Translations under genes and position numbers: made by a program
In this document: one piece after another, positions 7,728 through 21,922 of the stretch
How positions within the stretch are numbered: the stretch's first letter is position 1
Layout of the letters: every line of letters begins with the position of its first letter
Virus record (IMG/VR): IMGVR_UViG_3300036715_000169
Location: 1 to 25,348 of that record
DNA from: a virus
Length of the DNA: 25,348 bases
Strand: one strand, 5' to 3'
Notes under the pieces: generated by a model
Told to the model about the DNA's origin: nothing
What the model saw: the letters and a program-made list of their open reading frames with translations, nothing else
Database searches by the model: none

Positions 7728-9041
7728 ATGGTCTTAGAAATAACACCAACAGAAAAACAATACGAGGCTTGGCAATTATTAGGGGATAATACTACAAGTT
7801 TTTTATTGTTTGGAGGTGGTGCAGGAGGTGGTAAATCCTTTCTTGGCTGTCAATGGCTAATTGCTCAATGCTTAGGATATAAAAATGTTCGTTATTTAAT
7901 GGCTCGTAAAGAGTTAAAGCAATTAAAGGCTACAACCTTAAATACTTTCTTTAAAATATGCTCTGAATACAACATTAAACGTGACATTCACTATAATTAC
8001 AATGCTCAATCGGGAGTAATATCATTCTTACAAACGGGAAGCGAGATTGTCTTAATGGATTTAGTAAAGAAACCTAGTGACCCGATGTTTCAAGACTTAG
8101 GTTCGTTGGAATTAACAGGTGCATTTATTGATGAAGCAGGAGAGATTGATTCTTTAGCGTTTGACATTCTTAAATCAAGAATAGGTAGGCAGAACAATCA
8201 AGCCAATGGAATTATGCCTAAAATACTAATGACTTGTAACCCAATAAAGAACTGGCTTTATTATTCATTCTTTAAACCTAATAGAGAGGGTACGTTAATA
8301 GAAGGGTATAAATTCTTACAAGCCCTTGTTACAGATAACAACAAGGTAGATGAAGATTACATTAATCAGTTAAGAAGCATAACAGATAAAGTAACAAGAC
8401 AACGATTATTATTGGGCGATTGGGAGTACTCAGACGATTCAAGCCAGTTAATAACCTATGACAGTATAATTGATTCGTTTAACAATCATTTTGTAAAGAA
8501 TGGCACAAGGTACATAGTAGCTGATATAGCAAGATTCGGAAAGGATAAAACCGTTATAGGTGTGTGGTCAGGGTTTATACTTGAGAAGGTTGTCGTGTTA
8601 AGAAAATCAAGTATAACAGACACAGCCGAAAAGATAAGAGAATTGCAAGGTGTTTGGTTTATTCCTACAAGTCAAGTGTTGGTAGATGAAGATGGTGTAG
8701 GTGGTGGAGTAAAAGACATATTAAAATGCAAAGGCTTTGTAAATAATTCAACAGCAGCCAAAGGCGAACAATATATTAATCTTAAATCACAATGCTATTA
8801 TCGTATGGCAGAACGAATGAACAAAGCTGAGTACTGGTTAAAATGTACCGATACACAAATAAAGGAACATATCATTGAAGAATTAGAGCAAGTAAAACAG
8901 AAAAGCGTTGATAGTGATGGTAAAAAAGCAATCATATCAAAAGATTTAGTAAAGGATATATTAGGTCGTTCACCTGACTATTCAGATATGATAGCATACA
9001 GAGAATACTTTGAATTATTTGCTACAAAAAAGATTTTTTAA
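7728..9041 (+). CDS. terL: terminase large subunit
   Basis: A 437-residue protein with both TerL domains. The ATPase has Walker A GGGAGGGKS at residues 29-37, Walker B GAFIDEAGEI (DE at 135-136) and coupling motif MTCNP near 168-172. The RNase H-like nuclease has its first acidic residue at D266 (VADIARFGKD), a second in VLVDEDGVGGG (D320, D322) and a third near D417-D420 (PDYSDMIAY). The enzyme cuts concatemeric DNA and pumps it through the portal into the prohead. Length and motifs are complete. The small subunit candidate lies upstream; the portal follows one gene later. Confidence 0.95.
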   Translation: MVLEITPTEKQYEAWQLLGDNTTSFLLFGGGAGGGKSFLGCQWLIAQCLGYKNVRYLMARKELKQLKATTLNTFFKICSEYNIKRDIHYNYNAQSGVISFLQTGSEIVLMDLVKKPSDPMFQDLGSLELTGAFIDEAGEIDSLAFDILKSRIGRQNNQANGIMPKILMTCNPIKNWLYYSFFKPNREGTLIEGYKFLQALVTDNNKVDEDYINQLRSITDKVTRQRLLLGDWEYSDDSSQLITYDSIIDSFNNHFVKNGTRYIVADIARFGKDKTVIGVWSGFILEKVVVLRKSSITDTAEKIRELQGVWFIPTSQVLVDEDGVGGGVKDILKCKGFVNNSTAAKGEQYINLKSQCYYRMAERMNKAEYWLKCTDTQIKEHIIEELEQVKQKSVDSDGKKAIISKDLVKDILGRSPDYSDMIAYREYFELFATKKIF

Positions 9042-9060
9042 TTTGTATTGATTAATTATT

Positions 9061-9068
9061 TATATTTG
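9061..9068 (+). promoter_or_regulatory. -7 box upstream of the gene at 9156
   Basis: TATATTTG followed by CAAT. No TTG lies 19 bases upstream, although TTTG at 9042-9045 is nearer. It gives a leader of about 80 bases that contains the hairpin at 9105-9142. Confidence 0.55.
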
Positions 9069-9104
9069 CAATATCATTCTTGGAGTTTTGCCTCTCCGTT
9101 ACAA

Positions 9105-9142
9105 AAAAGGTTATAGATTATAAACTATAATAATAACCTTTT
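9105..9142 (+). promoter_or_regulatory. long hairpin in the leader of the gene at 9156
   Basis: AAAAGGTTAT (9105-9114) is the exact reverse complement of ATAACCTTTT (9133-9142), giving a 10-bp stem with an 18-base AT-rich loop. It ends 13 bases before the ATG. It could be a transcript stabiliser, a translational control element, or a weak terminator for read-through from the terminase genes. The short T run after the stem is only four long, so efficient termination is doubtful. Confidence 0.5.
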
Positions 9143-9155
9143 AAAACCTTTAAAA

Positions 9156-9749
9156 ATGGCAATTTGCGATACTTTTAGTTGCACAAATGGAATAGGCGAT
9201 ACAGTCATTCCTAATTGTGGAGATGTAGATTATGGTAAGAAGATTGTAAAAGTCTTTCTTATGAAAACAACAGGAGCAGGATTTCCTGATGTTAGTTCTT
9301 TAATTGTAGAATCCAACTGGACTACCAGGATGGGTTACGCTGCAACAGGAGCAAACTCTGTTGATAGAATTGTAGCTTTGGGTGACTTGCACGTTGGTAT
9401 TAAACCTGCTGCTGAAGTAGAAACTGAAGAAGCACCTTACGGTGGCGATGAATTAGTTGCTCGTAAACACTCTATTACTTTTGAAATAAAAAGATGGAAC
9501 GCTGCATTAATTACAGCTATTAATAACTTAAGATGTATTGACCAATACAACTTTTGGTATTTAACAGAAACGGGTTATTTGTTTGGAGGTATTGCTGGTT
9601 ATCCATCTGCATCATTTGTTTGGGGTGGACTTGAACACGCAGGTATTGGACAAGGTAAATCAAAAAGTACTAATGCAGTATCTTGGTATTCTAAGGATGA
9701 CAGTATTGGTTATTTGACTACTTTCCTTAAAACAAAAACAAACCCTTAA
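9156..9749 (+). CDS. unknown, probable virion protein
   Basis: A 197-residue protein I cannot assign. The start is cysteine-bearing (MAICDTFSCTNGIGDTVIPN), followed by strand-rich segments (KKIVKVFLMKTTGAGFPDVS, KHSITFEIKRWNAALITAIN) and a glycine- and aromatic-rich end (FWYLTETGYLFGGIAGYPSA). The beta-rich, glycine-rich composition and lack of enzyme motifs suit a structural protein. It has its own promoter and a structured leader, as expected for a gene made in large amounts. A tail-tube or head-decoration protein is possible. Its position between terminase and portal is unusual for either. Confidence 0.6.
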   Translation: MAICDTFSCTNGIGDTVIPNCGDVDYGKKIVKVFLMKTTGAGFPDVSSLIVESNWTTRMGYAATGANSVDRIVALGDLHVGIKPAAEVETEEAPYGGDELVARKHSITFEIKRWNAALITAINNLRCIDQYNFWYLTETGYLFGGIAGYPSASFVWGGLEHAGIGQGKSKSTNAVSWYSKDDSIGYLTTFLKTKTNP

Positions 9750-9760
9750 TACTACCTATA

Positions 9761-11470
9761 ATGGTTCTTGATGATGCAAAGATTAAGAGCCTTATAGAAA
9801 AGCCTTACAGTAAGGCTTTAATAGATAGGGCAAAACAATTATTTAAGTCACACCGACTTCATATAAAGGGAGTCGGTGTTGATGACTTCCTTGCTCGTAT
9901 GGAACAATACGAAAACGAAGCGCAACACAATTTAAGGAAGCGACTTGCCAAACCTGCTACTGTACCTATTTATGGTAAAGAGTTAGCACCATTTAGTAAG
10001 GCATTTTCTGCACAAGGTTTCTCTCGTTATTATAACTTCAAACTAGAAAACCAAAAGTCAGACTTTAAGAATTATTTAATGTCAGACTTAGGTGATGGAA
10101 TGAATATGTCACAATGGATGCGTTATTGGCTTGAAAAGGTTAATTACGATTCAACAGGACTAATGATGGTAGAATTACCAAGCGAATCAGAGGAAGAACT
10201 AAATCCTTATATTTGCTTTAAGTCTATTAATGATATTCACGATATTGAGTTTGAAGGTAATAATATTGAGTATGTTATACTTAAATGGGAACACGAGGCA
10301 ATGGAATATGAAAATGTGTTACACAATTCAGGTATAGAATATTTTAGAGTAATTGATGCTGAGTTAGACCGTATCTATAAACGTGAAGATGGTAATATAT
10401 CTGAAGTGTTAGATAAGCAACTTAAAAATAAGTTTGGTTATGTTCCTGCTATTGCAGTATCAAATCAAAAAGATTCAATAAGCGAAGCAAGAACATCTTA
10501 TGTATGGCAGTCAATAGGATTAGCAGATGAATATTTGTTAGATAGTTCTATCCACACCATAAGTAAGAAGCTACACGGATTTCCGATTAAGTATATGCGC
10601 CAACAAGGGTGCAAGGTATGTTCAGGAAGTGGTATGTTATCAAATCCTAGATACTTTGACGATAATTCTTTGTCACAAACAATGAATTGTTCAGGGTGTA
10701 ACGGTACAGGCTATTCAATGAAATCAGATGTTAGTGATGTGATAATCATTCCAACACCAACACAAGGCGAACCCGATGTATTACCAGTTGCAGGTTATGT
10801 ACAACCTGATATTGCTACTTTATCAGAACAAAGAACAGAAAGCGATTGGTTAAGAATACATATATCTAAGGCTATTTGGACTGCTGATGATTCAGTAGGC
10901 ACAGGGTCAAGCGATAAAACAGCAACAGGTGTAGTTCACGATGTACAAAGTGTACACGATAAACTAAATATAGTAAGTGATAATGCACAAGAAGTTGAAA
11001 AGTTTTTGACTGATACTTTAGCATTGATTCGTTACGGTAGTGATTACATTGATTCAGCTATTAATTATGGTAGAAGGTATTTTGTAAGAACTGCTGATGA
11101 AATAGAGAGGTTATATGAAGCTGCACGAACAGCAAACTTACCTACTCACTTACTAGATGCATACATTGAAGAACTTATTTATGTTAAGTTTGGTAACGAC
11201 CAAATGGAACTACAAAGACAATTAAAGCTAAACGAGTTAGAGCCATTTATACATCTATCAGCAAAAGAAGTAAAAGATTTAGGAGTAAGCCAAAGCGATT
11301 TATTTTTAAAAATATACTTCAATGATTATATTGAATTGTTTGAACGTGAAGGAAACAGTATATCGCTTTCAAGTACAACAGATATAGCTAAAAAGTTAGC
11401 AGAGTATAATAAGGCAAAGGTTGATGAAACAAAACCAATTATTGAACCAATAATACAACCTATTGAATAA
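9761..11470 (+). CDS. portal protein with a zinc-knuckle insertion
   Basis: A 569-residue protein in the portal position. Residues 90-210 contain the beta-rich portal core (YICFKSINDIHDIEFEGNNI). Residues 365-450 hold the helical stem region, including SVGTGSSDKTATGVVHDVQS. The C-terminus is proline-rich and acidic. Residues about 284-318 carry two knuckles, CKVCSGSG (C284, C287) and CSGCNGTG (C310, C313), like half of the DnaJ zinc-binding repeats. The portal dodecamer is the DNA entry channel and nucleates head assembly. The assignment comes from gene order, size and the general pattern rather than a single decisive motif. Confidence 0.8.
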   Translation: MVLDDAKIKSLIEKPYSKALIDRAKQLFKSHRLHIKGVGVDDFLARMEQYENEAQHNLRKRLAKPATVPIYGKELAPFSKAFSAQGFSRYYNFKLENQKSDFKNYLMSDLGDGMNMSQWMRYWLEKVNYDSTGLMMVELPSESEEELNPYICFKSINDIHDIEFEGNNIEYVILKWEHEAMEYENVLHNSGIEYFRVIDAELDRIYKREDGNISEVLDKQLKNKFGYVPAIAVSNQKDSISEARTSYVWQSIGLADEYLLDSSIHTISKKLHGFPIKYMRQQGCKVCSGSGMLSNPRYFDDNSLSQTMNCSGCNGTGYSMKSDVSDVIIIPTPTQGEPDVLPVAGYVQPDIATLSEQRTESDWLRIHISKAIWTADDSVGTGSSDKTATGVVHDVQSVHDKLNIVSDNAQEVEKFLTDTLALIRYGSDYIDSAINYGRRYFVRTADEIERLYEAARTANLPTHLLDAYIEELIYVKFGNDQMELQRQLKLNELEPFIHLSAKEVKDLGVSQSDLFLKIYFNDYIELFEREGNSISLSSTTDIAKKLAEYNKAKVDETKPIIEPIIQPIE

Positions 11471-11564: not shown

Positions 11565-12056
11565 ATGACTGAATTAAAAAAAACGTATGTCAAAGCAATA
11601 CGCATAGACACAAAAGGAAACACAATGACAAAAGGCGATTTAGAACAGCCCGATGTATGTGCATTTAGCTTACAAGATTGGAAGCAAATGAGTGAAACAA
11701 AGGGTCTGAATTGGAAGTATATTGAACATATACCTTGCCCAAGTGAAGGAGATATATTAAAAGAGTATGTAACAGGAGGGGCAGAGATTACAGCAGTAAA
11801 AGAGTTTATTAAAAATGGGGGTGTTTTGGATTTACCAAAAGAGCCTGAACGTATAAAGAGTGATGCCGAGTTAGTAAAAGAGTTAATGGCAAGAATAACT
11901 GAACTTGAAAAAGGTAAAGTAAGTCTTGAACAAAAACCTGATGACTACTTAAATGGGTTAACCGATGACCAGTTAAAAGAATTGGCAAAGGATAATAACA
12001 TTACAGGATTTGGCAATATGAAACGTGAAACATTAATTAATAAACTAACAAAATAA
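11565..12056 (+). CDS. unknown protein with C-terminal HeH/SAP-like motif
   Basis: A 163-residue protein. Residues 1-65 form a small domain (KTYVKAIRIDTKGNTMTKGD, then SLQDWKQMSETKGLNWKYIE). Residues 93-125 are a charged, partly coiled linker. Residues about 127-161 (YLNGLTDDQLKELAKDNNIT, then a loop and KRETLINKL) match the helix-extended-helix pattern of SAP/HeH/Rho-N domains, which bind nucleic acid. Such tails occur in small head-region proteins of many phages. The gene sits between portal and scaffold, has its own promoter and leader, and is followed by the scaffold after three bases. Confidence 0.6.
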   Translation: MTELKKTYVKAIRIDTKGNTMTKGDLEQPDVCAFSLQDWKQMSETKGLNWKYIEHIPCPSEGDILKEYVTGGAEITAVKEFIKNGGVLDLPKEPERIKSDAELVKELMARITELEKGKVSLEQKPDDYLNGLTDDQLKELAKDNNITGFGNMKRETLINKLTK

Positions 12057-12972: not shown

Positions 12973-14004
12973 ATGGCAAATTTCACAGCAACAGACTTGC
13001 TTACAATCCGTGTACAAGCGGAAGCCTCAATGGCAGCAAGGATTAACAAGAATGAATTACGACCACCGTTAACAGGAGCATTAAATGCTTATTTTGCATC
13101 AACACCTGACTTAATTAATGGAGGTGCTTCTACAATTTCAAGTTTAAAGAACTCAACAGCACAACCAGTTGCTATTCCTGTTGTAAAACAGTTAACAACT
13201 ACTGTTGATTCGGCTCGTGCTTGTGGTGCAACTGAGGTAGGGGATTCTGCTTTAATTACTCCAACTTTCCAAATAGTATCAAAAGGCTTTAAAATGTCAT
13301 CTTTGATGTTTGCAGGAAACGAGATTAATTTTCAAGAAGCATTCCGTAACAACTTGGAGCAAACATTCATAAAGTTACACTTAAACTTAGAGCAAAAAGC
13401 TATTACTAACTTGGTGGCAAATCAGTCAGCAATTAATAACGGTTCTTTGAATACTTGGTTTGGTGCATTAAACCAAATGAACGTATCGGCAGCTAACTAC
13501 AATTACTTTTATTCAAGTATTGCAGCAGAATTGTTGGAGAATAACTTTAACGGTCAATTGTTTAACGTGCATATGGCAGCAGGTCGTGAGCAAGTACTTC
13601 GTACAGGCGCACAAGGTATGGGTAACGCTACTAACTTGCAATGGCAAATGGATGGTTTCACCCACTTTGCTACAAACAGCATATCAAGACCAACAGCATC
13701 AACAACTGCTTCTTTTATCTTTGTACCAGGAACAGTAGGTATCGTTCCTTGGATTAACAAAGTATCAAGAATAGGAGAGGACTTTGGAACTGAAATGTGG
13801 ACTACAATCAATGACCCTTTTGTACCAGGACTTACTTGGGAATTAAAAGTACGCAAATCTTGTGCTGATAATTCAGCAGTAACAACAGGTGGCGAGGCTG
13901 ACCCTACTTATGAGTTCCGTATATCAGCAGAGTTTGCTTACATTGCAGCTTACACTTCAAATACTGATACAGGTATCTACAAGTATGTTCAGAAAAACAT
14001 ATAG
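12973..14004 (+). CDS. major capsid protein (probable)
   Basis: A 343-residue protein, usual size for an HK97-fold capsid subunit. N-terminal helices (LTIRVQAEASMAARINKNEL) precede a middle rich in A, N, S and Q (LEQTFIKLHLNLEQKAITNL) and a beta-rich end (FVPGTVGIVPWINKVSRIGE; TWELKVRKSCADNS). No catalytic motif is present. The assignment rests on gene order (terminase, portal, scaffold, then this gene), length, and the strong intrinsic terminator directly behind it, which is typical of a very highly expressed late gene. The fold itself cannot be verified by eye. Confidence 0.75.
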   Translation: MANFTATDLLTIRVQAEASMAARINKNELRPPLTGALNAYFASTPDLINGGASTISSLKNSTAQPVAIPVVKQLTTTVDSARACGATEVGDSALITPTFQIVSKGFKMSSLMFAGNEINFQEAFRNNLEQTFIKLHLNLEQKAITNLVANQSAINNGSLNTWFGALNQMNVSAANYNYFYSSIAAELLENNFNGQLFNVHMAAGREQVLRTGAQGMGNATNLQWQMDGFTHFATNSISRPTASTTASFIFVPGTVGIVPWINKVSRIGEDFGTEMWTTINDPFVPGLTWELKVRKSCADNSAVTTGGEADPTYEFRISAEFAYIAAYTSNTDTGIYKYVQKNI

Positions 14005-14036
14005 TAGTTAGTAAAGTGTTAATAATTATTTGAACG

Positions 14037-14072
14037 GTAGCCTTTCTGAAATATGGAGGGCTACTTTTTTTT
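14037..14072 (+). terminator. intrinsic terminator after the capsid gene
   Basis: GTAGCC (14037-14042) pairs with GGCTAC (14059-14064). The pairing extends inward to a 10-bp stem, GTAGCCTTTC with GGAGGGCTAC, including two G-U pairs. The stem is followed by a run of eight T. It separates the head operon from the cassette behind it. Confidence 0.85.
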
Positions 14073-14075
14073 AAT

Positions 14076-14083
14076 TAAATTTG
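14076..14083 (+). promoter_or_regulatory. -7 box of the cassette promoter
   Basis: TAAATTTG fits TAnnTTTG and begins four bases after the T run of the terminator. It gives a leader of only about 12 bases before the cold-shock gene at 14103. This is the only promoter seen for the whole 6.5-kb cassette. Confidence 0.6.
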
Positions 14084-14102
14084 CATTAATTAACAATTGA
14101 TT

Positions 14103-14291
14103 ATGACAGGTAAAATTAAATTCTTCAACCAATTAAAAGGGTACGGTTTTATTATAGACGATGAAACAAGCAAAGATATATTCCTTCATATTACAAATGT
14201 AAAAGGTCAACCTAAAGAAGGGGATAACGTGACATACGATATTAAGGAAGATAAGAAAGGGTTACACGCTTTCAATGTTGTTAAAGCGTAA
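14103..14291 (+). CDS. cold-shock domain protein
   Basis: A 62-residue protein consisting of one cold-shock domain with little beyond it. KGYGFI at residues 12-17 is RNP1 and DIFLHI at 25-30 is RNP2, the two aromatic RNA-binding motifs. The five-strand pattern is complete, though the protein is slightly shorter than the usual 65-70 residues of CspA relatives. Such proteins bind single-stranded RNA or DNA and melt RNA structure. I chose the ATG at 14103 over an in-frame TTG at 14097. It is the first gene of the glycosyltransferase operon, four bases before the next start, so it may help translation of the long transcript that follows. Confidence 0.9.
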   Translation: MTGKIKFFNQLKGYGFIIDDETSKDIFLHITNVKGQPKEGDNVTYDIKEDKKGLHAFNVVKA

Positions 14292-14295
14292 CACT

Positions 14296-15447
14296 ATGCA
14301 GAACTACCGATTATTAGTTGTAATGATTCCTGAAGTAAGTGGAGTAAGTTATTACAGGCAATCAATGCCACACGAACACTTATCTAAAAACTTTCCTGAG
14401 TTTGAAATTACCTACACAACAGGTCAAGAGTTAAACGGTAAGCCAAAAGAATACTATAAAGACTTTCAGTTAGTAATATTTCAAAGGGATTTACCCAATG
14501 AAGAATACGTTAACACAGTTAAGTCTATGGGTTGTGTTGTATTGTTAGATATTGATGACCATTGGCAAGTACCTAAACACAATTCAAGTTACTATGATTA
14601 TAAGAAGTATAATTTAAGTGAAAAGATTATTAAGTCTTTTGTATTAGCTGACCACATTACTACTACTACACCTTACTTAAAAGAGCAAATAAAACGATTT
14701 ACATATAGTGGTATAAGTATATTACAAAATGCAATTGACCCAAGTATTAAGCAGTTAGGAATAAAAGAAATACTATCTGATAAGATGCGCTTTGGATATA
14801 TGGCTACACCAAACCATATAGAAGACTGTAAATTAATGAAGGATAGCATACAATCACTACTTTATGATAGAACTATGCAAGGTAGGTATCATTTATCTTT
14901 AGGAGGCTTTAATATGGATAGTCGATTAGCTTTTGAAATAGGTGGCGAGATAGTAGATTATGAAAAGATAAGCAAACCACTAAGAAAGTTAATGAAAATT
15001 GAAGGATATAAGCAGCCATTTGAAGAAATGGAGGAAATATTCACCAATAAAGGTAGGGTAAAAGATTACTCAAGGATATTAAGTAAGCCAGTTGATGAAT
15101 TTATGCAAGGCTACAATGAATTAGATGTTTGTTTAGTACCTTTAGTGGATAGTGACTTTAATCGTTGTAAGAGTGAGTTAAAAATGATTGAGGCAGGGTG
15201 GTTTAAAAAGGCTTGTATATGTTCAGATGTAATTCCTTACAACACTATTGATATAGCTAATTTTGTTAACAACAATAACAAGTTAGGGTTTTATTTTGCT
15301 ATAAAATATTGCATTGAAAACCCACACTATGTTGAGAACTTGGGTAACAAGTTACACGAATATGTAATTGTTAACCACAACTTAGATAACACCAATATAT
15401 TTAGAGCAGAGTTATATAAAGAATTAATAGATAAACGTAATGATTAA
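14296..15447 (+). CDS. GT-B glycosyltransferase (GT4-like)
   Basis: A 383-residue protein from ATG 14296, four bases after the previous stop; an in-frame ATG at 14275 lies inside the cold-shock gene. The N-terminal half has a Rossmann-like start (YRLLVVMIPEVSGVSYYRQS) and an acceptor-side part with DIDDHW. A linker segment FGYMATPNHIEDCK begins the C-terminal domain. LVPLVDSDFNRCKSELKMIE then EAGWFKKACICSDVIPY is the nucleotide-sugar binding segment, where GT4 enzymes use E/K residues on the diphosphate and a conserved glutamate on the sugar. It would transfer a sugar from a nucleotide donor in the cytosol; donor and acceptor are unknown. It overlaps the next gene by 8 bases. Confidence 0.8.
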   Translation: MQNYRLLVVMIPEVSGVSYYRQSMPHEHLSKNFPEFEITYTTGQELNGKPKEYYKDFQLVIFQRDLPNEEYVNTVKSMGCVVLLDIDDHWQVPKHNSSYYDYKKYNLSEKIIKSFVLADHITTTTPYLKEQIKRFTYSGISILQNAIDPSIKQLGIKEILSDKMRFGYMATPNHIEDCKLMKDSIQSLLYDRTMQGRYHLSLGGFNMDSRLAFEIGGEIVDYEKISKPLRKLMKIEGYKQPFEEMEEIFTNKGRVKDYSRILSKPVDEFMQGYNELDVCLVPLVDSDFNRCKSELKMIEAGWFKKACICSDVIPYNTIDIANFVNNNNKLGFYFAIKYCIENPHYVENLGNKLHEYVIVNHNLDNTNIFRAELYKELIDKRND

Positions 15448-16099
15448 GTGCTTTATAATACATTTTAATAGACCTACTTTTTTAGCTAGGCAGTTAGATG
15501 TATTAATGCAGAATAAAGAATTAGATTTAATTGTGGTTGACAATGGCTCAGCTTACACTCCATTAGTTCCTAAAGGTGTAGAATTATTGCTTATAAATAA
15601 GAATTATGGACACACAGTAGTATGGGATTCGGGAATGAGTAAAATGGTAGCACCAAACGAAAAGTATATAGTAACTGATTGCGATATAATACCACCTAAT
15701 TGCGACTACCTTAAACTATTGAACGAAGGACTAGATAAGTACCCACATATTAACAAAGTAGGCTTAGAATTGAATATTAGCAGAATACCTAAAGCGTACC
15801 ACAAAAGAGCAGAGGTTGTTAATCACGAAAAAAAAGTACTTTACCGTAAAGAAATAAAGGATAAAAACTTTGTTGAATGTGGAGTAGATACTACATTTGC
15901 ATTGTACCGTGAAGGGTATCACAATTACTCTGTTTGGGGTACAGACACAAACGAATGGCAAGGTAAATGTCTAAGTTTAAGAACTAAAAAGATTGAAGCA
16001 GACCATTTAGGATGGCACGTTATTAAACCGTATGATGAAGAAACACAATTTTATTTTAACTCAATAAGGCATTTGCCAATAGCACAATGGAAAGACTAG
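15440..16099 (+). CDS. GT-A glycosyltransferase-like protein
   Basis: A 219-residue protein. The start KCFIIHFNRPTFLARQLDVL then LIVVDNGSAYTP is the GT2-type nucleotide-binding opening. The metal-binding DxD is DCD at residues 80-82 in YIVTDCDIIPP. A later HLGWHVIKPY segment is in the place of the acceptor-side loop. It is compact and has no membrane segment, so it is likely cytosolic. It starts in the preceding gene's last eight bases and overlaps the next by 13, so the three proteins are translated together. Sugar and target cannot be read from sequence. Confidence 0.8.
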   Translation: MIKCFIIHFNRPTFLARQLDVLMQNKELDLIVVDNGSAYTPLVPKGVELLLINKNYGHTVVWDSGMSKMVAPNEKYIVTDCDIIPPNCDYLKLLNEGLDKYPHINKVGLELNISRIPKAYHKRAEVVNHEKKVLYRKEIKDKNFVECGVDTTFALYREGYHNYSVWGTDTNEWQGKCLSLRTKKIEADHLGWHVIKPYDEETQFYFNSIRHLPIAQWKD

Positions 16100-16791
16100 A
16101 ACAAAAGATATTGATTAAATTTGCTACCCGAAGCCGACCTCAAAAGTTTGCTTCTTGCATAGCTAATATATTAAACAATGCAAACCAACCCGATAACTTA
16201 TTAATACTTGTATCTATTGATGGTGATGACTATTCAATGCAAAATATAGTAGAAGGTTCGGCTGTTGTAAAAAACATTCACTTTGTAAGTGGTAGTTCAA
16301 AGAATAAAATAGATGCAATTAATCGTGATGTAAACGAATGCCAGTATGAATGGGATATACTAATTAATTTTAGCGATGACCAAGAGTTTGTAGTACAAGG
16401 CTTTGATGACATAATAAGAAAGGATTTTGCAGAGCATTTTCCTGATGGCAATGGTTGTATGCACTACAAAGACAAAAATGCACCATTAATGACAATGAGC
16501 ATAATAGATAGAAAATATTATGCAAGGTTTAATTATATATACCATACTGATTATGTGTCTTTATGGTGTGATAACGAGGCTCAAGATGTGGCAATTATGT
16601 TAGGAAGGTATAAGTATATAGACTACGTTATATTTCATCACAACCATCCTGGTTGGGGATTAGGTGCAATGGATGAACAGTATAGAAAAACTGAGGCTTT
16701 TTATAAGCAAGATGAAGAAGTATTTTTAAAACGACAAGAAAACAATTTTGACCTAATAAATATTGAAGGACAATGGCAGATAAAAGCGTAA
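16087..16791 (+). CDS. GT-A glycosyltransferase-like protein
   Basis: A 234-residue protein. ILIKFATRSRPQKFASCIAN is the first strand and helix. ILVSIDGDDYS is the next strand with its acidic turn. NKIDAINRDVNECQYEWDIL then INFSDDQEF places SDD at residues 96-98 as the metal site. HHNHPGWGLGAMDEQY lies where the catalytic base of GT2 enzymes is expected, here D/E rather than the usual ED pair. No membrane segment is seen. It overlaps both neighbours by 13 and 19 bases. Its sequence clearly differs from the flanking GT-A genes, so recent duplication is not evident. Confidence 0.75.
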   Translation: MERLEQKILIKFATRSRPQKFASCIANILNNANQPDNLLILVSIDGDDYSMQNIVEGSAVVKNIHFVSGSSKNKIDAINRDVNECQYEWDILINFSDDQEFVVQGFDDIIRKDFAEHFPDGNGCMHYKDKNAPLMTMSIIDRKYYARFNYIYHTDYVSLWCDNEAQDVAIMLGRYKYIDYVIFHHNHPGWGLGAMDEQYRKTEAFYKQDEEVFLKRQENNFDLINIEGQWQIKA

Positions 16792-17351
16792 GATTAAGCA
16801 TTCTTATATTGACTATTCATAGCAGACAAAAGGAATTTGATAAGTTGTTTGATGAGTTTTTTGTTCAATGTATAGATGCAAAAGAACAATGCGAAATACT
16901 TTATGAATGTGACAATGGCGAGTTAACAAAGGGAACTAAAAGAAACATATTAATGAATAGGGCAAAAGGGGAATACCTTTGTTTCTTTGACGATGACGAT
17001 ATACCTAGCATTGATTATGTAGAACAGATATTAAAGGCTTTAGAATTAAATCCTGATTGTTGTTCTTTGCGTGGACTTATTACTCAAGATGGTGGAGAGC
17101 CTGAAGTATTTGAACATAGCATTAAATATGAGGAATGGAAAACAAACGATACAGGAATGGTAAAATATGAAAGACCACCAAACCACTTAAACACAATAAA
17201 GTCAAGCATAGCAAAAAAAATACCATACGCTGAAATAAATCACGGTGAAGACCATCAATGGAGTATGGATTTAAAAGCAATTGGATTGATTAAAACAGAG
17301 GGTTATATTGATTCAGTTATTTATAATTATATTTACATAAGTAAAAAATGA
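16773..17351 (+). CDS. GT2-family glycosyltransferase
   Basis: A 192-residue protein and the clearest GT2 member of the cluster. RLSILILTIHSRQKEFDKLF opens the fold. TKGTKRNILMNRAKGEYLCF then FDDDDIPS gives the donor site (DDDD at residues 73-76). NHGEDHQWSMDL supplies the ED pair (159-160) expected of the catalytic base. It is short for GT2, with only the core fold and no C-terminal extension or membrane helix. The end overlaps the next gene as ATGA. Donor sugar is unknown. Confidence 0.85.
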   Translation: MADKSVRLSILILTIHSRQKEFDKLFDEFFVQCIDAKEQCEILYECDNGELTKGTKRNILMNRAKGEYLCFFDDDDIPSIDYVEQILKALELNPDCCSLRGLITQDGGEPEVFEHSIKYEEWKTNDTGMVKYERPPNHLNTIKSSIAKKIPYAEINHGEDHQWSMDLKAIGLIKTEGYIDSVIYNYIYISKK

Positions 17352-18208
17352 GTAAAGAAAGATTTAAAGGCGCAGTAGTGTATTCTTTATTCGGATATGA
17401 TAGAGAAAGGGCTGAGAATTGTTTTGATTTTAACTCTTATTTAAGAGGGTTAATGATAAATATTAGAATGAATAAATTGTTATTTCCCGATTGGGATATA
17501 ATACTACAAACAGACACAGCAACAAACGCAGCATTTTTACCTTTGTTTGAAAAGTTACCAATAATAGTAGAGGTTAATTCAGATGGAACACCATTAACAA
17601 AGGCAATGTTGTGGAGAATGAAGCCGATATTCCACTATAAGCATCCTAACTGGAAATATACACACATTATTTGTAGGGATTTAGATAGCCCACCAACATA
17701 TAGAGAAGCACAAGCTGTTAAACATTGGATAAATAAAGATACAGCAGCACACGCTATTACGGATTCAGTAAGCCATAACTTACCATTGTTAGGTGGTATG
17801 ATTGGGTTTAAATGTGGCGATTTTGTAGGAATGACAAAAAAAATGGATTGGAATAGTTTATTTGAAGGTGTTGATATTGATTTTAACCGTAAGGGTGCAG
17901 ACCAAGACTATTTAAACAAGTTTATTTACCCTATATTTGCTACATTTGATAGACCATCAATTACACAACATTATGTATTAGGAATGGCAAATACTTTCTT
18001 AGCTGGATATAATAATAATATACCTGACTTAGAATTAGGTTTAAGTTATGAATTAAAAGAAAGCAATAATGTATGTGGACATATAGGTAGTGCAGGATAT
18101 TATGAAGCTTCAATGTTTAAGTTTTTGCGTAATTATTGGCACGATTTTGATTACTTGTTGGAAGTAGAAAAGAACTATCCTAATATATTTTATTGGTGCA
18201 ATGAATAA
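17348..18208 (+). CDS. GT-A-like glycosyltransferase
   Basis: A 286-residue protein. KGAVVYSLFGYDRERAENCF opens the fold. LLFPDWDIILQTD and WRMKPIFHYKHPNWKYTHII lead to CRDLDSPPTYREAQAVKHWI, in which DLD (111-113) is a DxD motif followed by a helix typical of transferases related to capsule-modifying enzymes. LLGGMIGFKCGDF lies where the acceptor pocket would be. The protein is rather larger than the other GT-A members because of a C-terminal 80-residue part (YVLGMANTFLAGYNNNIPDL onward). It overlaps the tiny gene that follows by 8 bases. Confidence 0.7.
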   Translation: MSKERFKGAVVYSLFGYDRERAENCFDFNSYLRGLMINIRMNKLLFPDWDIILQTDTATNAAFLPLFEKLPIIVEVNSDGTPLTKAMLWRMKPIFHYKHPNWKYTHIICRDLDSPPTYREAQAVKHWINKDTAAHAITDSVSHNLPLLGGMIGFKCGDFVGMTKKMDWNSLFEGVDIDFNRKGADQDYLNKFIYPIFATFDRPSITQHYVLGMANTFLAGYNNNIPDLELGLSYELKESNNVCGHIGSAGYYEASMFKFLRNYWHDFDYLLEVEKNYPNIFYWCNE

Positions 18209-18386
18209 CGGAACATATAAGATAACTGAAAGTGCAGAAGATATGCACGATAGTACAGACCTTGCAAGGGTTATAACTATTGAGTATGCTGAAGGAGTTA
18301 TTATACATACATTTATATTTGGTAAATTAGATTCAACAGAAATAAAAAAGAAAGATGGAAAAAATAGTAGTAGTATCAACAAATAA
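18201..18386 (+). CDS. unknown small protein inside the cassette
   Basis: A 61-residue protein of unknown function. It contains a beta-rich segment (DLARVITIEYAEGVIIHTFI) and a lysine- and serine-rich end. It overlaps the preceding gene by 8 bases and the next by 32, in different frames. Without it a gap of about 146 bases would break an otherwise gap-free operon, which argues that it is real. The long 3' overlap means its last ten codons could be incidental. Confidence 0.5.
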   Translation: MNNGTYKITESAEDMHDSTDLARVITIEYAEGVIIHTFIFGKLDSTEIKKKDGKNSSSINK

Positions 18387-19089
18387 TAACCCTGATTATA
18401 TGTTCTATTCGCCTTATATTCTAAAGGCTTGGAACAGTTACGGATGGAAAGTAGCAGTAATAATTACTCACGATGTAGACCCTGCAAATGTGGTAGGGGA
18501 TTATATCATACAACTACCCGACATTACAGGGTTAAGAACAGAAACACAAGCACAGGGAGGAAGGCTTTATGCAGCTAATTACTTGCCCGTTGATTCGTTG
18601 GTAATGACTAGCGATATGGACTTACTCCCTTTGTTTGACTATTGGCATCCTAAAGAAGATGAGGTTACAGTTTATGGTCACGACTTAACGTGGAGGTCTT
18701 TCTATCCAATGGGTTATATATGTATGCCTTGCATTAAATGGAAGGAAGTAATGAACTTAAAATTTAACACTAAAGATGAGTTTTTAAGAGATGCAAACGA
18801 AACACAAATAGCTTTTGCTCCTGATTGGGATAGTTGGTGGAACTTTGACTGGGATTTAATCACTAAAAGATTAAAGCCTATGCACGATTCAATAACCTTT
18901 ATTGATAGAGGGCAAATAAACATAGCAGGAGCATCACTAGCTTATGGTAGGGTAGATAGGTTTAATTGGGAAGAAACACAAAAGCAAGACCATTGGATTG
19001 ATGCACATTGTGAGAACAACAATGTTAGGCATCCTGAGAAACTTGCTAAGTTTTTAACCGTATTTGAAAAGGTATATGGAAAATTATAG
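18355..19089 (+). CDS. GT-A-like glycosyltransferase
   Basis: A 244-residue protein. KIVVVSTNNNPDYMFYSPYI is the opening strand and helix. GWKVAVIITHDVDPANVVGD follows, and LVMTSDMDLLPLFDYWHPKE gives DMD at residues 87-89. A set of aromatic residues (APDWDSWWNFDWDLITKRLK) near residue 150-175 may line the acceptor site. No membrane segment is present. Its stop overlaps the methyltransferase gene by 14 bases. It resembles the protein at 17348 in general plan but not closely in sequence. Confidence 0.7.
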   Translation: MEKIVVVSTNNNPDYMFYSPYILKAWNSYGWKVAVIITHDVDPANVVGDYIIQLPDITGLRTETQAQGGRLYAANYLPVDSLVMTSDMDLLPLFDYWHPKEDEVTVYGHDLTWRSFYPMGYICMPCIKWKEVMNLKFNTKDEFLRDANETQIAFAPDWDSWWNFDWDLITKRLKPMHDSITFIDRGQINIAGASLAYGRVDRFNWEETQKQDHWIDAHCENNNVRHPEKLAKFLTVFEKVYGKL

Positions 19090-19615
19090 AGAAAAATTTT
19101 GTGCAAGTGGTGGCGACTTATGTTACTACCCTTTATTATTTATTGGTTTAGAAGAAACCAAAGGTAGAGTAATGGAGTTTGGTATGGGTCACGGTTCTAC
19201 ACCATTGTTAAACGACTATTGTACAGCTAAGAAAAGAATGCTGCATTCATTTGATTATAATGAGGGGTGGAGGTCTAAATTTGATAGCATATTAAATGAC
19301 TACCATAAATCATTTTTAGTTACTGATTGGGGAAAGGTTTATGAAAATGAAGCTGAGTTAATCTTTATTGACCAATCACCTGGAGAGGAACGCAAAGAAA
19401 CAATTAATGCTTACCAACATACAAAAGGTATTTTAGTTATTCACGATACAGAGCCAACAGGAGCAGGAGATTATCAAGTACGACCTTTATTTAGTTTGTT
19501 TAAATATAAGATTGAAGTACAAACAGCAGGGGCTTGGGCTACTGCATTAAGTAATGAAATTGACATTACTAAATGGGTAGGCGAAAAGTTTGGAGGTTAT
19601 ACTATTTCATTATGA
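19076..19615 (+). CDS. class I SAM-dependent methyltransferase-like protein
   Basis: A 179-residue protein from ATG 19076; an in-frame TTG at 19064 would lengthen the overlap. RVMEFGMGHGSTPLLNDYC (residues 31-49) is the glycine-rich motif I of Rossmann methyltransferases, with E34 and the GMGHG loop. LHSFDYNEGW is the second strand with its acidic end (D60). AELIFIDQSPGEER then GILVIHDTEP are later strands, with IDQ and HD in the active-site region. It would move a methyl group from S-adenosylmethionine to an unknown acceptor, perhaps a sugar made by its neighbours. The start of the next gene overlaps its stop. Confidence 0.75.
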   Translation: MENYREKFCASGGDLCYYPLLFIGLEETKGRVMEFGMGHGSTPLLNDYCTAKKRMLHSFDYNEGWRSKFDSILNDYHKSFLVTDWGKVYENEAELIFIDQSPGEERKETINAYQHTKGILVIHDTEPTGAGDYQVRPLFSLFKYKIEVQTAGAWATALSNEIDITKWVGEKFGGYTISL

Positions 19616-20235
19616 GTAACTGTGTTGTAAGTGTCGCATTTCGTGAGCCATATTTAACTCATAGTGCTAGGCAAGAAAAGCATTATGGCGATTATAATAG
19701 GATTGTGTTTAGAGATGAATTGCCGATTAAAGGCGGTAGTATTATAGGCGAAGAATTAATACCTACTTTCCAAAAGTCTTTATACGGTTTTAAGCCTCAC
19801 GCAATACAAAGAGCAATAGATTTAGGATATAAAAAGATTATTTGGCTTGACCCTTCAGTATTACCTACTTCAGATATTAAGATTCTTTTTGATGCTTTAG
19901 ATGAACACCCTATACTAAATGTTTTAGGTGAGCATAAATTATCTAAAATGACAAGCGACAAAGCGTTATTATACTTTAAGGTGCAACCAAGCGAAATAGA
20001 TAATATAAATCACTTAGGCGGTACTATTTATGGTTTTAATTTTGAACATCCAAAGGCAGTAGAAGTATTTAATTTGTGGAAACAAGCTGAAGAAGAAGGT
20101 GCTTTTGGTAATCAGAACGAGTTTATGGCAGGACATTGGGCTGATGAATCGTGTATGGCTTTATGTATGTACAAGGCAGGAGTGCCACAATATCAAGAAT
20201 ATAAATTTACTTACGTTAATCAAAAGAACTTATGA
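19612..20235 (+). CDS. GT-A-like glycosyltransferase (DxS variant)
   Basis: A 207-residue protein from ATG 19612, which overlaps the previous stop as ATGA; an in-frame ATG 39 bases upstream lies inside the methyltransferase gene. The core element YKKIIWLDPSVLPTSDIK (residues 74-91) ends a strand with LDPS, a DxS in place of the metal-binding DxD. HLGGTIYGFNFEHPKAVEVF then GHWADESCMALCMY forms the acceptor side, with a DES that may supply the base. The fold resembles small galactosyl-type transferases. The missing second aspartate might reduce metal dependence or mark a non-catalytic partner. The gene overlaps the next as ATGA. Confidence 0.6.
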   Translation: MSNCVVSVAFREPYLTHSARQEKHYGDYNRIVFRDELPIKGGSIIGEELIPTFQKSLYGFKPHAIQRAIDLGYKKIIWLDPSVLPTSDIKILFDALDEHPILNVLGEHKLSKMTSDKALLYFKVQPSEIDNINHLGGTIYGFNFEHPKAVEVFNLWKQAEEEGAFGNQNEFMAGHWADESCMALCMYKAGVPQYQEYKFTYVNQKNL

Positions 20236-20795
20236 TACAATTTATAGCAGAGCATACCGTTGACACATCACTATTAAAGGGTGGAGTATGTATAGATGTA
20301 GGGTGTTTAGGGTTTGATTTTAGTAATGCTATGCACGATTTAGGTTGTGAAGTTTGGGCTTTTGATATTCAAAATATGAATCCTAAACACGAACATATAC
20401 GTTTTGAACGTGCTGCAATATCAACATCAAGTGGTATTGCTAGTTACAACGAAGTAAGCGACAAACAAGCTGCAAACATTATTTCAGATGGTAGTATTGA
20501 AGTACCTAGATACAGTTTAAATAGTGTATATGAGCAAATAGGTAAACCGATTGATATACTTAAATTGGATTGTGAAGGAAGTGAGTATTTTATATTGAGC
20601 GACTTTAATTTTAAGCCAATACCACAACAAATAAGTGTAGAGTTTCACGAACATTGCCAAAAGGACTTGCACAATTTGTTATTTGATAAGTGTATTGAAA
20701 ACCTTTTAAAGTACTATAATCCAATAAAAATGGATAGATATGCAGCACACGGAGCAGGTTTTAATTATTGGGACTGTTTATTTGTTAAAAAATAG
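20232..20795 (+). CDS. FkbM-family methyltransferase
   Basis: A 187-residue protein. GVCIDVGCLGFDFS (residues 18-31) is motif I. EVWAFDIQNMNP is the following acidic strand end. IDILKLDCEGSEYFILSD (107-124), in which KLDCEGSE is at 111-118, is the signature of the FkbM family. FkbM enzymes methylate hydroxyl groups of sugars and related molecules, so capping of a glycan made by the upstream transferases is likely. It is the last gene of the cassette, and the tail promoter begins one base after its stop codon. It is shorter than most FkbM proteins (about 230-280), with a minimal core. Confidence 0.85.
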   Translation: MIQFIAEHTVDTSLLKGGVCIDVGCLGFDFSNAMHDLGCEVWAFDIQNMNPKHEHIRFERAAISTSSGIASYNEVSDKQAANIISDGSIEVPRYSLNSVYEQIGKPIDILKLDCEGSEYFILSDFNFKPIPQQISVEFHEHCQKDLHNLLFDKCIENLLKYYNPIKMDRYAAHGAGFNYWDCLFVKK

Positions 20796-20803
20796 TATAT
20801 TTG
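20796..20803 (+). promoter_or_regulatory. -7 box of the tail-gene promoter
   Basis: TATATTTG, preceded by TAG as at 7155 and 23025. It lies directly after the FkbM stop and only 15 bases before the ATG at 20819. Confidence 0.55.
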
Positions 20804-20818
20804 TAAAAATATTCTACA

Positions 20819-21922
20819 ATGATAGATTACACTAAAATACAAGCGTGTCTTACTGGAACTAATCAGTTAGTAGGATATAGGAACTCAGACGATAGCTGTG
20901 TTGGTAATATAATCAACAGCAACGTAACAGGAAGCACAAGCGGAAAGTATGTTACATCTATTCCTGGTATAACAATGGAACTAATCAAAGCTAATTTAAG
21001 CAGCGATTATTCAACGGTAACAGCTTACTTAAACTATATTAATGGCGAAGAAGTTATTAATGCGGTGCAAGACTTTGTTAAAAGGCATAAGGAGTTAACA
21101 GGAGCAAGGCATTTAATAGATAACATTGACCCTGTAAAGAGTAGAGATATATTCTTTACAGATAAGATTACAAAGTCAGGAAGGTTTGTAGGTATTGAGA
21201 TAACACCATTACAAAGCGATAATGTAGCGGTATGGTTAAGAATGTTTGGTACTCAATTTGATACAATAGAGGCAGCAAGAACGATTTATTTATACGATTG
21301 TTCACAAAATACAGCGATTAAGACATTTACCTTAACCACTACAAAGACATTGAGTTTAGAATGGTGGACTTTAACTGATTTTGTATGTAATTACAAGTCA
21401 ACAACAGGTGGTACTGGTGCTAGGTTTTTACTAGGATATTATGAGAATGACTTTACAGGTCAAGCAATAGACACAAGGCTTTGGAATAATTGCTGTGGTA
21501 ATTATTGGGTATCTGAATATCAAAAATATGTAACAGTAAGAGGTGTTACTTTTGAAAGCACACAATTAAACGGTACATCGTTACCTAATATAGAACAAAT
21601 AAGTTATACAGACCAAACCTTTGGGCTTCATTTAAAGGCTACTGTTACTTGTGACATCAGCGATACTATTTGCCAAAACAAACAGTTATTTGACAGCATA
21701 GTTCAAAAGAAATTAGCTATGAGAATACTTTGGGATTTCTACAATAGCAATAGAACAAATGCAAATGCAGACTTTTCAAGGGATAAAGCAATGAATAACA
21801 TTACACGCTTAGAAAAGGAGTATGAAGATGATTTAAAAGGCATAAGAATGGACTTTACCGATATTGATAGAGTGTGTCAACCTTGTTCTAAAAACACTAT
21901 CTACACGCAAACAATGAGATAA
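20819..21922 (+). CDS. unknown, probable tail or neck protein
   Basis: A 367-residue protein I cannot assign. Strand-rich segments (SGRFVGIEITPLQSDNVAVW, AIKTFTLTTTKTLSLEWWTL) and serine/threonine-rich loops suit a structural virion protein. CCGNYW, TICQNKQ and CQPC supply several cysteines. The C-terminal 60 residues are helical and charged. No enzyme motif is seen. It is the first gene after the cassette, under its own promoter and upstream of the tail chaperone genes, so a tail-tube, tail-completion or connector role is likely. Confidence 0.6.
   Translation: MIDYTKIQACLTGTNQLVGYRNSDDSCVGNIINSNVTGSTSGKYVTSIPGITMELIKANLSSDYSTVTAYLNYINGEEVINAVQDFVKRHKELTGARHLIDNIDPVKSRDIFFTDKITKSGRFVGIEITPLQSDNVAVWLRMFGTQFDTIEAARTIYLYDCSQNTAIKTFTLTTTKTLSLEWWTLTDFVCNYKSTTGGTGARFLLGYYENDFTGQAIDTRLWNNCCGNYWVSEYQKYVTVRGVTFESTQLNGTSLPNIEQISYTDQTFGLHLKATVTCDISDTICQNKQLFDSIVQKKLAMRILWDFYNSNRTNANADFSRDKAMNNITRLEKEYEDDLKGIRMDFTDIDRVCQPCSKNTIYTQTMR

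Follow-up and report, generated by a model that had tools for sequence, protein, structure and literature searches.

A probable virion-glycosylation operon between the capsid and head-tail adaptor genes of an environmental phage

The window analysed here, an entire IMG/VR record of 25 kb (25,348 nucleotides) and a fragment of a viral genome, contains an eleven-frame block rich in transferase genes that is probably a virion-glycosylation operon, which would use host NDP-sugars to build a methylated oligosaccharide on proteins of the virion. By computation, we show the content of the block, its insertion into the head operon, the homology of one enzyme to that of a phage with a reportedly glycosylated capsid, the recurrence of the module in other viruses, fusions among its genes, and the near-absence of DNA-modification and O-antigen routes. 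The host of the virus is a probable Bacteroidota bacterium. The block and its surroundings comprise the following features.

9156–9749, + strand: candidate major tail protein and second candidate acceptor, flanked by the terminase and portal genes, which is the arrangement of TCUEAP2
12973–14004, + strand: major capsid protein (MCP), immediately 5' of the cassette, candidate acceptor (phrog_7231, 2.5e-41)
14036–14065, + strand: intrinsic terminator behind the capsid gene (11-pair stem, then eight T; fold -16.8 kcal/mol)
14076–14083, + strand: TAAATTTG, Bacteroidota-type -7 promoter element ahead of the cassette (weak as a single site; element class enriched in intergenic gaps)
14103–14291, + strand: cold-shock domain protein (PF00313, 5.9e-19; mechanical ORF start TTG 14097)
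14275–15447, + strand: GT1, GT-B glycosyltransferase (phrog_7162, 1.4e-39)
15440–16099, + strand: GT2, weakly matched GT-A family-2-like glycosyltransferase (PF00535, 0.0064, under the cut-off)
16087–16791, + strand: GT3, GT-A-like glycosyltransferase, conserved partner of GT4 (phrog_14945, 3.1e-11)
16773–17351, + strand: GT4, GT-A family-2 glycosyltransferase (phrog_14775, 4.4e-33; PF00535, 9.9e-8), homologue of the Che8 gp108 N terminus
17348–18208, + strand: GT5, transferase with a predicted GT-A fold whose family is missing from Pfam (AlphaFold2 pLDDT 86)
18201–18386, + strand: u61, small conserved protein between GT5 and GT6 with a DSTD motif (homologue in contig G001, E 7.9e-5)
18355–19089, + strand: GT6, transferase with a predicted GT-A fold like that of glycogenin/LgtC and ABO enzymes (AlphaFold2 pLDDT 86)
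19064–19615, + strand: MT1, putative SAM-dependent methyltransferase (conserved E-x-G-x-G-x-x-S motif and H-D-T-E; uncertain start, either TTG 19064 or ATG 19076)
19612–20235, + strand: GT7, putative GT-A-like transferase (W-x-D-x-S-type motif kept among 14 homologues; mechanical ORF start 19573)
20232–20795, + strand: MT2, FkbM-type methyltransferase (PF05050, 1.1e-7, over the cut-off)
20796–20803, + strand: TATATTTG, promoter element for the following transcription unit (Bacteroidota-type match)
20819–21922, + strand: head-tail adaptor-like protein, directly 3' of the cassette (phrog_8189, 7.5e-46)

ORF analysis placed all eleven frames co-directionally on the + strand (14,103–20,795), as an earlier sequence-only reading had described. 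From 5' to 3', consecutive frames overlap by 17, 8, 13, 19, 4, 8, 32, 26, 43, and 4 bases, and a 23-base gap separates the last frame from the next gene. The overlaps thus span 4–43 bases as called; since homologues place the true start of GT7 at about 19,612 rather than 19,573, the 43-base overlap shrinks to 4. The frames encode the cold-shock protein, one GT-B and six GT-A-like transferases (GT2 and GT7 being the least certain members), one small protein, and two methyltransferases, so that the earlier account of the content was accurate except for its count of five GT-A-like enzymes. Its placement of the cassette between head and tail genes is correct as an interval and can be narrowed to the space between the major capsid and head-tail adaptor genes. 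However, the cassette is not fully self-contained, as had been proposed, because no gene for NDP-sugar synthesis was seen within the block.

The terminator and the promoter elements at both cassette ends were likewise recovered. The + strand of the window has ten copies of TATATTTG and the - strand none; six of the ten fall in the intergenic 6% of the window (binomial p 8e-6). A sigma-70-type promoter scan of the window stayed at chance level (43 found versus 42.2 +/- 6.7 expected), as did the spaced pattern TTTG-N17-23-TAnnTTTG (3 found versus 2.54 expected); among the patterns scanned, only the -7 element is informative.

Comparison with related phages indicates that the cassette is an insertion, because the capsid and adaptor genes are 6,815 bases apart in this virus and only 0–1,600 bases apart in 53 relatives (0–506 bases in 51 of them; 1,534 and 1,600 in the other two). 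None of those 53 phages encodes a homologue of any cassette protein, and relatives of the module were found in other IMG/VR contigs. The flanking genes have counterparts elsewhere: proteins annotated as MCPs in Pan5, PDS1, and Flavobacterium phages are homologues of the MCP, the adaptor-like protein is homologous to the Pan5 adaptor and to TCUEAP2 8409–9707, and the tail protein candidate is weakly similar to TCUEAP2 tail major protein 2 (E 0.005). TCUEAP2 is the nearest relative on the portal tree (support 0.5). Replacement of a cement gene by the cassette was considered and rejected, because the capsid-adaptor gap of TCUEAP2 is likewise only 74 bases and the window yielded no cement homologue. 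Recent acquisition from a genome of differing composition is also unsupported, as GC3 of the cassette (0.259) is close to that of the head (0.256) and tail genes (0.254).

Profile searches and structure prediction, both proposed as checks in the sequence-only reading, were informative. The former matched the cold-shock domain (6e-19), GT1 (1.4e-39), GT3 (3e-11), GT4 (4e-33), and MT2 (1.1e-7), while AlphaFold2 models compared by Foldseek assigned GT-A folds to GT5 and GT6. The predicted GT5 structure matches GT-A enzymes, glycogenin among them (E about 1e-5), and that of GT6 matches glycogenin (4.4e-7), ABO transferases, and LgtC. These family matches of the cold-shock protein and four enzymes, together with the predicted folds, put the block beyond chance. 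An R-D-x-D-S motif is kept in 20 GT5 homologues, and GT6 carries a D-x-D motif. Pfam searches over all members of the GT5 and GT7 families gave no matches, MT1 has no Pfam match, and PDB sequence profile searches with GT3, GT5, GT6, GT7, and MT1 found nothing credible. The module of about ten genes includes two transferase families unknown to Pfam, in addition to the small DSTD protein, which has no name. Profile-profile comparisons between cassette proteins yielded nothing significant, and the transferases are thus not demonstrably recent duplicates.

A functional lead comes from GT4, which matches gp108 of mycobacteriophage Che8 (2e-11 in a collection search, 1e-19 pairwise) as well as enzymes of other Mycobacterium, Gordonia, and Actinoplanes phages. 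It shares 27–34% identity with six actinophage enzymes, and the DDDD and GED motifs are invariant. Phage virion glycosylation is documented in mycobacteriophages, whose capsid and tail-tube subunits bear glycans at their C-termini (PMC12619734); the major capsid protein of Che8 (cluster F1) is reportedly glycosylated (PMC11256854; Freeman et al. 2023, as cited there and in PMC12619734). Serine and threonine make up 20% of the last 40 residues of the capsid protein in the window and 25% in the tail-tube candidate, neither C-terminus being strikingly rich. In Che8 gp108, the GT4 domain is fused with a methyltransferase domain (Methyltransf_24, 3.7e-11). An identity of that domain with MT1 is not claimed, as hhalign gave a non-significant 11.5%; GT2 reached an hhalign probability of 55% against the Che8 gp109 group. 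The window thus combines a soluble transferase homologous to that of a virion-glycosylated phage (GT4), linked methyltransferase genes (MT2 by its FkbM match of 1.1e-7, MT1 by motif only), and a position within a virion operon, which is seen in clusters J and O but not in Che8. Glycosylation of the virion itself, as suggested earlier, remains the best-supported direction, given the GT4–Che8 gp108 homology and the glycosyltransferase and methyltransferase genes in cluster J and O head operons. In describing DNA and O-antigen as the usual targets of phage glycosyltransferases, the sequence-only reading left published virion glycosylation aside, and the idea is less new than that reading supposed because such glycosylation had already been described.

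GT4 relatives are encoded by at least 379 IMG/VR contigs; single-protein scans of viral contigs with the capsid protein or GT4 returned nothing, and alignment queries were needed. Three contigs (G001, also L092; G002, L095; and G003, L096) carry much of the module with its order kept. G001 reads GT1-x-GT3-GT4-GT5-u61-GT6-GT7-x-MT2-x-MT1 ahead of the terminase, and G002 and G003 show part of this order. GT3, GT5, GT6, GT7, and MT1 of these contigs are 47–66% identical to those of the window, and u61 is conserved, its member in G003 being recognised by position and alignment. Unlike the window, these contigs have additional proteins of ~290 and ~160–190 residues and lack the cold-shock gene, and in G001 and G003 the module lies upstream of the terminase. 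No cold-shock homologue was found in the 80 GT4 loci searched, and GT1 homologues are present in L092, L093, L095, L129, and L143. As labelled by single-round searches, GT3 occurs in 67 of 81 loci (window counted) and adjoins GT4 or shares one frame with it in 34 of 45 non-redundant loci. Single-frame fusions among relatives join GT3-GT4, GT5-GT6, GT7-MT2, and GT3-GT5, and the first three tie the cassette enzymes to one pathway.

Head, packaging, or tail genes neighbour the relatives in six of ten sampled viral loci and a terminase in a seventh (L092). Three bacterial contigs with cassette relatives have portal, MCP, or tape measure genes nearby, one of them, from Rhizobiales, in the order TerL-portal-x-MCP-GT. 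Several observations speak against a virion role: the unremarkable, though not decisive, C-terminal Ser/Thr content given above, a large group of T4-like contigs that has GT3-GT4 beside DNA polymerase rather than virion genes, and some GT4 relatives that lie on bacterial contigs without obvious phage context.

The presence of GT4 relatives on some bacterial contigs would suit enzymes that extend LPS, capsule, or lipid-linked glycans of the host, blocking superinfection or altering lysis, and loci for surface glycans often encode family-2, FkbM, and glycogenin/LgtC-like folds. We consider such remodelling unlikely, because none of the cassette proteins has a membrane segment (highest 19-residue mean hydropathy 1.23) that could anchor a transferase, GtrA was absent from all 30 other cassette-bearing records searched, and the Rhizobiales and Erwinia copies lie inside head/tail operons expected to be silent in a lysogen. 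Glycosylation of hydroxymethylated phage bases, either T4-like or dependent on a C5-methyltransferase and TET (Pyle et al. 2024, as cited in PMC12619734), is a common role of phage glycosyltransferase clusters and would agree with the T4-like and Phapecoctavirus relatives near DNA polymerase genes and with the weak match of fused prophage enzymes to the PHROG beta-glucosyl-HMC-alpha-glucosyltransferase. However, the thymidylate-synthase/hydroxymethylase family appeared in one of those 30 other records (a 225 kb phage), the C5 methylase PF00145 in two of 31 (the window not one of them), and Tet_JBP PF12851 in none of 31, although that family matched no control either; two sugar-type methyltransferases and a head-operon placement also fit poorly, and this role is improbable. 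The hydroxymethyl-pyrimidine pathway and O-antigen conversion set named earlier as counter-evidence are thus essentially absent from the 30 records, while a base-modification pathway could still sit in this virus's genome, since the record is only a fragment. Modification of a host protein or small molecule in the cytosol for takeover or defence evasion would suit proteins that all look soluble and FkbM and TylF-type methyltransferases that also act on small molecules, but is very improbable given the recurrent placement by capsid, portal, and tail genes and the homology of GT4 to the enzyme of Che8, a phage with a reportedly glycosylated virion.

If the block glycosylates virions, the cold-shock protein and the ten further proteins would be expressed late from their own transcription unit. 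One transferase would add the first sugar, from a host NDP-sugar, onto a virion protein, the major capsid or tail tube being the likeliest acceptor. GT4 and GT3 form the conserved core, GT1, GT2, GT5, GT6, and GT7 may lengthen the chain, and MT1 and MT2 would methylate sugar hydroxyls. The modification may keep the particle from being recognised or degraded, or it may tune adsorption.

The related blocks in hundreds of environmental virus contigs suggest that glycan coats on phage particles may be far commoner than thought. Tentatively, and with slightly less than even confidence, we propose that many unrelated environmental phages share a module of about ten genes, conserved and moving horizontally, that builds O-methylated oligosaccharides on their particles, virion glycosylation being general rather than an actinobacteriophage peculiarity. 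As a module of this size lies in a probable Bacteroidota phage and has relatives across hundreds of environmental contigs and several host groups of phages, particle glycans would then become a common factor in adsorption, particle stability, and immune recognition of phages; virome proteomics would be affected as well, because database searches miss modified peptides. The fusions and u61 offer concrete handles for enzymology.

Compared with known systems, Che8 genes 108–110 likewise encode a GT4-type GT-A enzyme, more small transferases, and a methyltransferase domain. However, these three genes lie at the right end of the Che8 genome, with GT4 fused to the methyltransferase, whereas the window has eleven genes in the head operon, a standalone GT4, and seven transferases in a probable Bacteroidota phage. 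The cluster J insertion (LittleE gp15-18, Thibault gp11-19; PMC3706429) shares the position between capsid and head-tail connectors and the combination of glycosyltransferases and methyltransferases. In LittleE, the MCP is followed by a glycosyltransferase, a kinase, an MT-GT, a glycosyltransferase, and then the connectors (PMC3706429), and gp15 is a GT4 homologue. That insertion differs in its Ser/Thr kinase and other gene families, and LittleE gp15-19 contain no clear homologues of GT1, GT5, GT6, or GT7. Between portal and protease, cluster O phages encode three transferases together with an O-methyltransferase, for which methyl and glycan modification of the capsid was proposed (PMC4351075); by description, Corndog gp35-38 resemble the window in uniting such genes in the head operon and differ in number (four) and in the portal-protease position. 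The four-glycosyltransferase cluster gp102-105 of Phapecoctavirus Mt1B1_P17 includes the GT1 homologues gp104 (4e-26), which matches Glyco_trans_1_4, and gp105 (6e-12), but lies beside DNA polymerase I with no methyltransferase annotated within it. Overall, this kind of system is known from actinobacteriophages, and the window holds a larger, widely distributed version of it outside them.

The eleven overlapping frames (14,103-20,795) between the major capsid protein (MCP) and head-tail adaptor genes form a real glycosyl- and methyltransferase cassette, as the sequence-only reading had claimed; the frames, their families, the insertion, and the conserved module all bear this out. By sequence match, GT1 is a GT-B enzyme, GT3 a PHROG glycosyltransferase, GT4 clearly a family-2 GT-A enzyme, and MT2 an FkbM methyltransferase; GT2, GT7, and MT1 carry putative assignments from motifs and weak matches. 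GT5 and GT6 fell in no sequence family, and their AlphaFold2 models, built from homologue alignments (pLDDT = 86 for each), matched glycogenin, LgtC, the ABO transferases, and other GT-A enzymes with TM-scores that, being moderate (0.34-0.57), support the GT-A fold class and do not bear on sugar or acceptor. The small protein u61 has a homologue in the environmental contig G001 (E 7.9e-5) and shares with a protein of contig G003 a DSTD motif, a similar C-terminal half, and a position between GT5 and GT6, which together indicate a real gene. None of the cassette proteins has a membrane segment. No other cassette was found to contain the cold-shock protein, whose gene may simply be the first of the operon.

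The window is the complete IMG/VR record and, because that record has only 25,348 bases, a fragment; its gene content is of the siphovirus type.

Features of the window
7,728: terminase
9,156: tail-protein candidate
9,761 (9761-11470): portal
12,060: scaffold-like gene
12,973: MCP
20,819: adaptor
23,076 onwards: tape measure
4430, 7155, 9061, 11476, 20796, 23025, + strand: intergenic TATATTTG, in six gaps ahead of gene groups

Virion proteins of the window matched B40-8, TCUEAP2, P12002L/S, PDS1, and Flavobacterium phages, and the Elizabethkingia phage TCUEAP2 adjoins the window in the portal tree with weak support. Six of the ten + strand copies of TATATTTG are intergenic, although intergenic DNA makes up 6% of the sequence (p 8e-6). 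TATATTTG is similar to the -7 element (TAnnTTTG) of promoters in Bacteroidota. These six copies are likely a set of phage promoters, and together with the protein matches and tree position they make a Bacteroidota host likely. Portal residues 281-321 resemble the CxxCxGxG zinc finger of DnaJ (PF00684 8.7e-5, below cut-off), a segment uncommon in a portal protein, with cysteines invariant across four related portals. Between portal and scaffold (11565-12056) lies a 163-residue protein with a Rho_N/HeH-like C terminus, whose only homologue among related loci is in L006, a contig with an identical portal.

To evaluate the insertion, the window was compared with four named phages and with 77 environmental loci carrying a related portal. 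In the 53 relatives that hold both MCP and adaptor, the two genes are 0-506 bases apart, except in two (1,534 and 1,600), and in the window they are 6,815 bases apart. No homologues of the eleven cassette proteins were present in the portal-related loci compared. GC and GC3 of the cassette equal those of neighbouring genes, so recent entry from a genome whose composition differs is not supported. L006 and L007 carry a portal identical to that of the window, indicating that its lineage exists elsewhere; both contigs end before the cassette position. Two other loci (L033 6160-7314, L034 4886-5974) have an extra frame of ~360-380 residues between MCP and a cement-like gene, near the place of the cassette.

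A concatenated cassette query without GT1 matched 64 phage records, nearly all via GT4 (hosts: Mycobacterium 35, Gordonia 22, a few others), among them gp108 of mycobacteriophage Che8, in which a methyltransferase domain is fused to the GT4 domain. A profile from GT4 and six phage homologues found relatives in at least 379 IMG/VR contigs, of which the best 80 were kept. GT3 adjoins GT4 in 31 of 45 non-redundant loci and shares its frame in three; GT5 occurs in 19, GT7 in 13, and MT2 in 7. In G001 (41.6 kb), the module keeps the gene order of the window apart from the methyltransferases, which both come after GT7, and it ends three small genes before terminase; contigs G002 and G003 agree with G001 as far as they extend. 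The cassette is one instance of a module recurring across environmental phages. Several loci fuse its genes.

Single-frame fusions
GT3-GT4: L090, L097, L100, L129, L158
GT5-GT6: L106
GT7-MT2: L099
GT3-GT5: L118

Genes fused in one frame usually function together, and these fusions therefore independently support a single pathway.

Ten large neighbouring proteins were sampled from viral loci. Families of head, packaging, or tail proteins accounted for six of them (protease, terminase, portal, tail fibre J, tail protein, MCP) and DNA polymerases or primases for two, while the other two had no match; in an additional locus, L092 (G001), terminase lies beside the module. In three bacterial contigs, probable prophages carry GT4-type enzymes within a head or tail operon. 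The Rhizobiales contig (L184 3581-9655) has, in order, terminase, portal, one frame, MCP, and a multi-domain glycosyltransferase of 692 residues. In the Erwinia contig (L188 6458-13535), a similar enzyme of 686 residues precedes the tape measure by a few genes. The Planctomycetota contig (L181 2-8609) has portal, one frame, MCP, then transferases. In both L184 and L188, a frame of ~200 residues comes after the ~690-residue multi-domain protein that includes the GT4-type enzyme. In T4-like contigs (L101-L116, L130-L133, L137-L140, L144), a GT3-GT4 pair with a long island of further frames lies 3' of the genes for DNA polymerase and a UvsX-like protein. A Phapecoctavirus cluster of four glycosyltransferases, two of them GT1 homologues, lies near DNA polymerase I (L083 12708-15852).

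The reading that the enzymes glycosylate phage DNA is retained mainly because of the T4-like loci, where GT3-GT4 lies close to DNA polymerase. Cassette phages should then make hydroxymethylated bases, but the thymidylate-synthase family, which includes hydroxymethylases, occurred in 1/30 records (9/14 control genomes were positive) and in none of the searched T4-like GT3-GT4 contigs, and C5 methylases occurred in 2/31. Tet_JBP matched no record, nor any control. For host surface remodelling, GtrA, a marker of O-antigen conversion, was found in 0/30 records and in seven controls. Because many records are incomplete, these absences only lower the standing of both readings.

The sequence-only reading pointed in the right direction in proposing a virion glycan. 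The analysis establishes gene content, insertion, homology, module conservation, fusions, and neighbourhood; the acceptor, chain extension, and methylation we infer. One core enzyme would transfer a sugar from a host NDP-sugar to a Ser or Thr residue on a virion protein, the remaining transferases would lengthen the chain, and MT1/MT2 would methylate it. By analogy with mycobacteriophages, the acceptor is most likely a capsid or tail-tube protein; neither protein of the window has an obvious Ser/Thr-rich tail. An extra 191-residue protein of G001 looks, by eye, like a short NAD-dependent sugar epimerase, which would be compatible with sugar remodelling.

Virion glycosylation is already known in actinobacteriophages, so the cassette is a variant of a known phenomenon; for Che8 we follow papers citing Freeman et al. 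2023. LittleE carries transferases directly 3' of MCP, and a Ser/Thr-kinase-like gene lies within its glycosyltransferase block (L085 8583-9086). Cluster J phages have 8-10 genes inserted between capsid and connector genes (PMC3706429), and cluster O phages have an O-methyltransferase and transferases between portal and protease, proposed by the authors to put methyl and glycan groups on the capsid (PMC4351075). What is new here is a larger cassette in a different host group.
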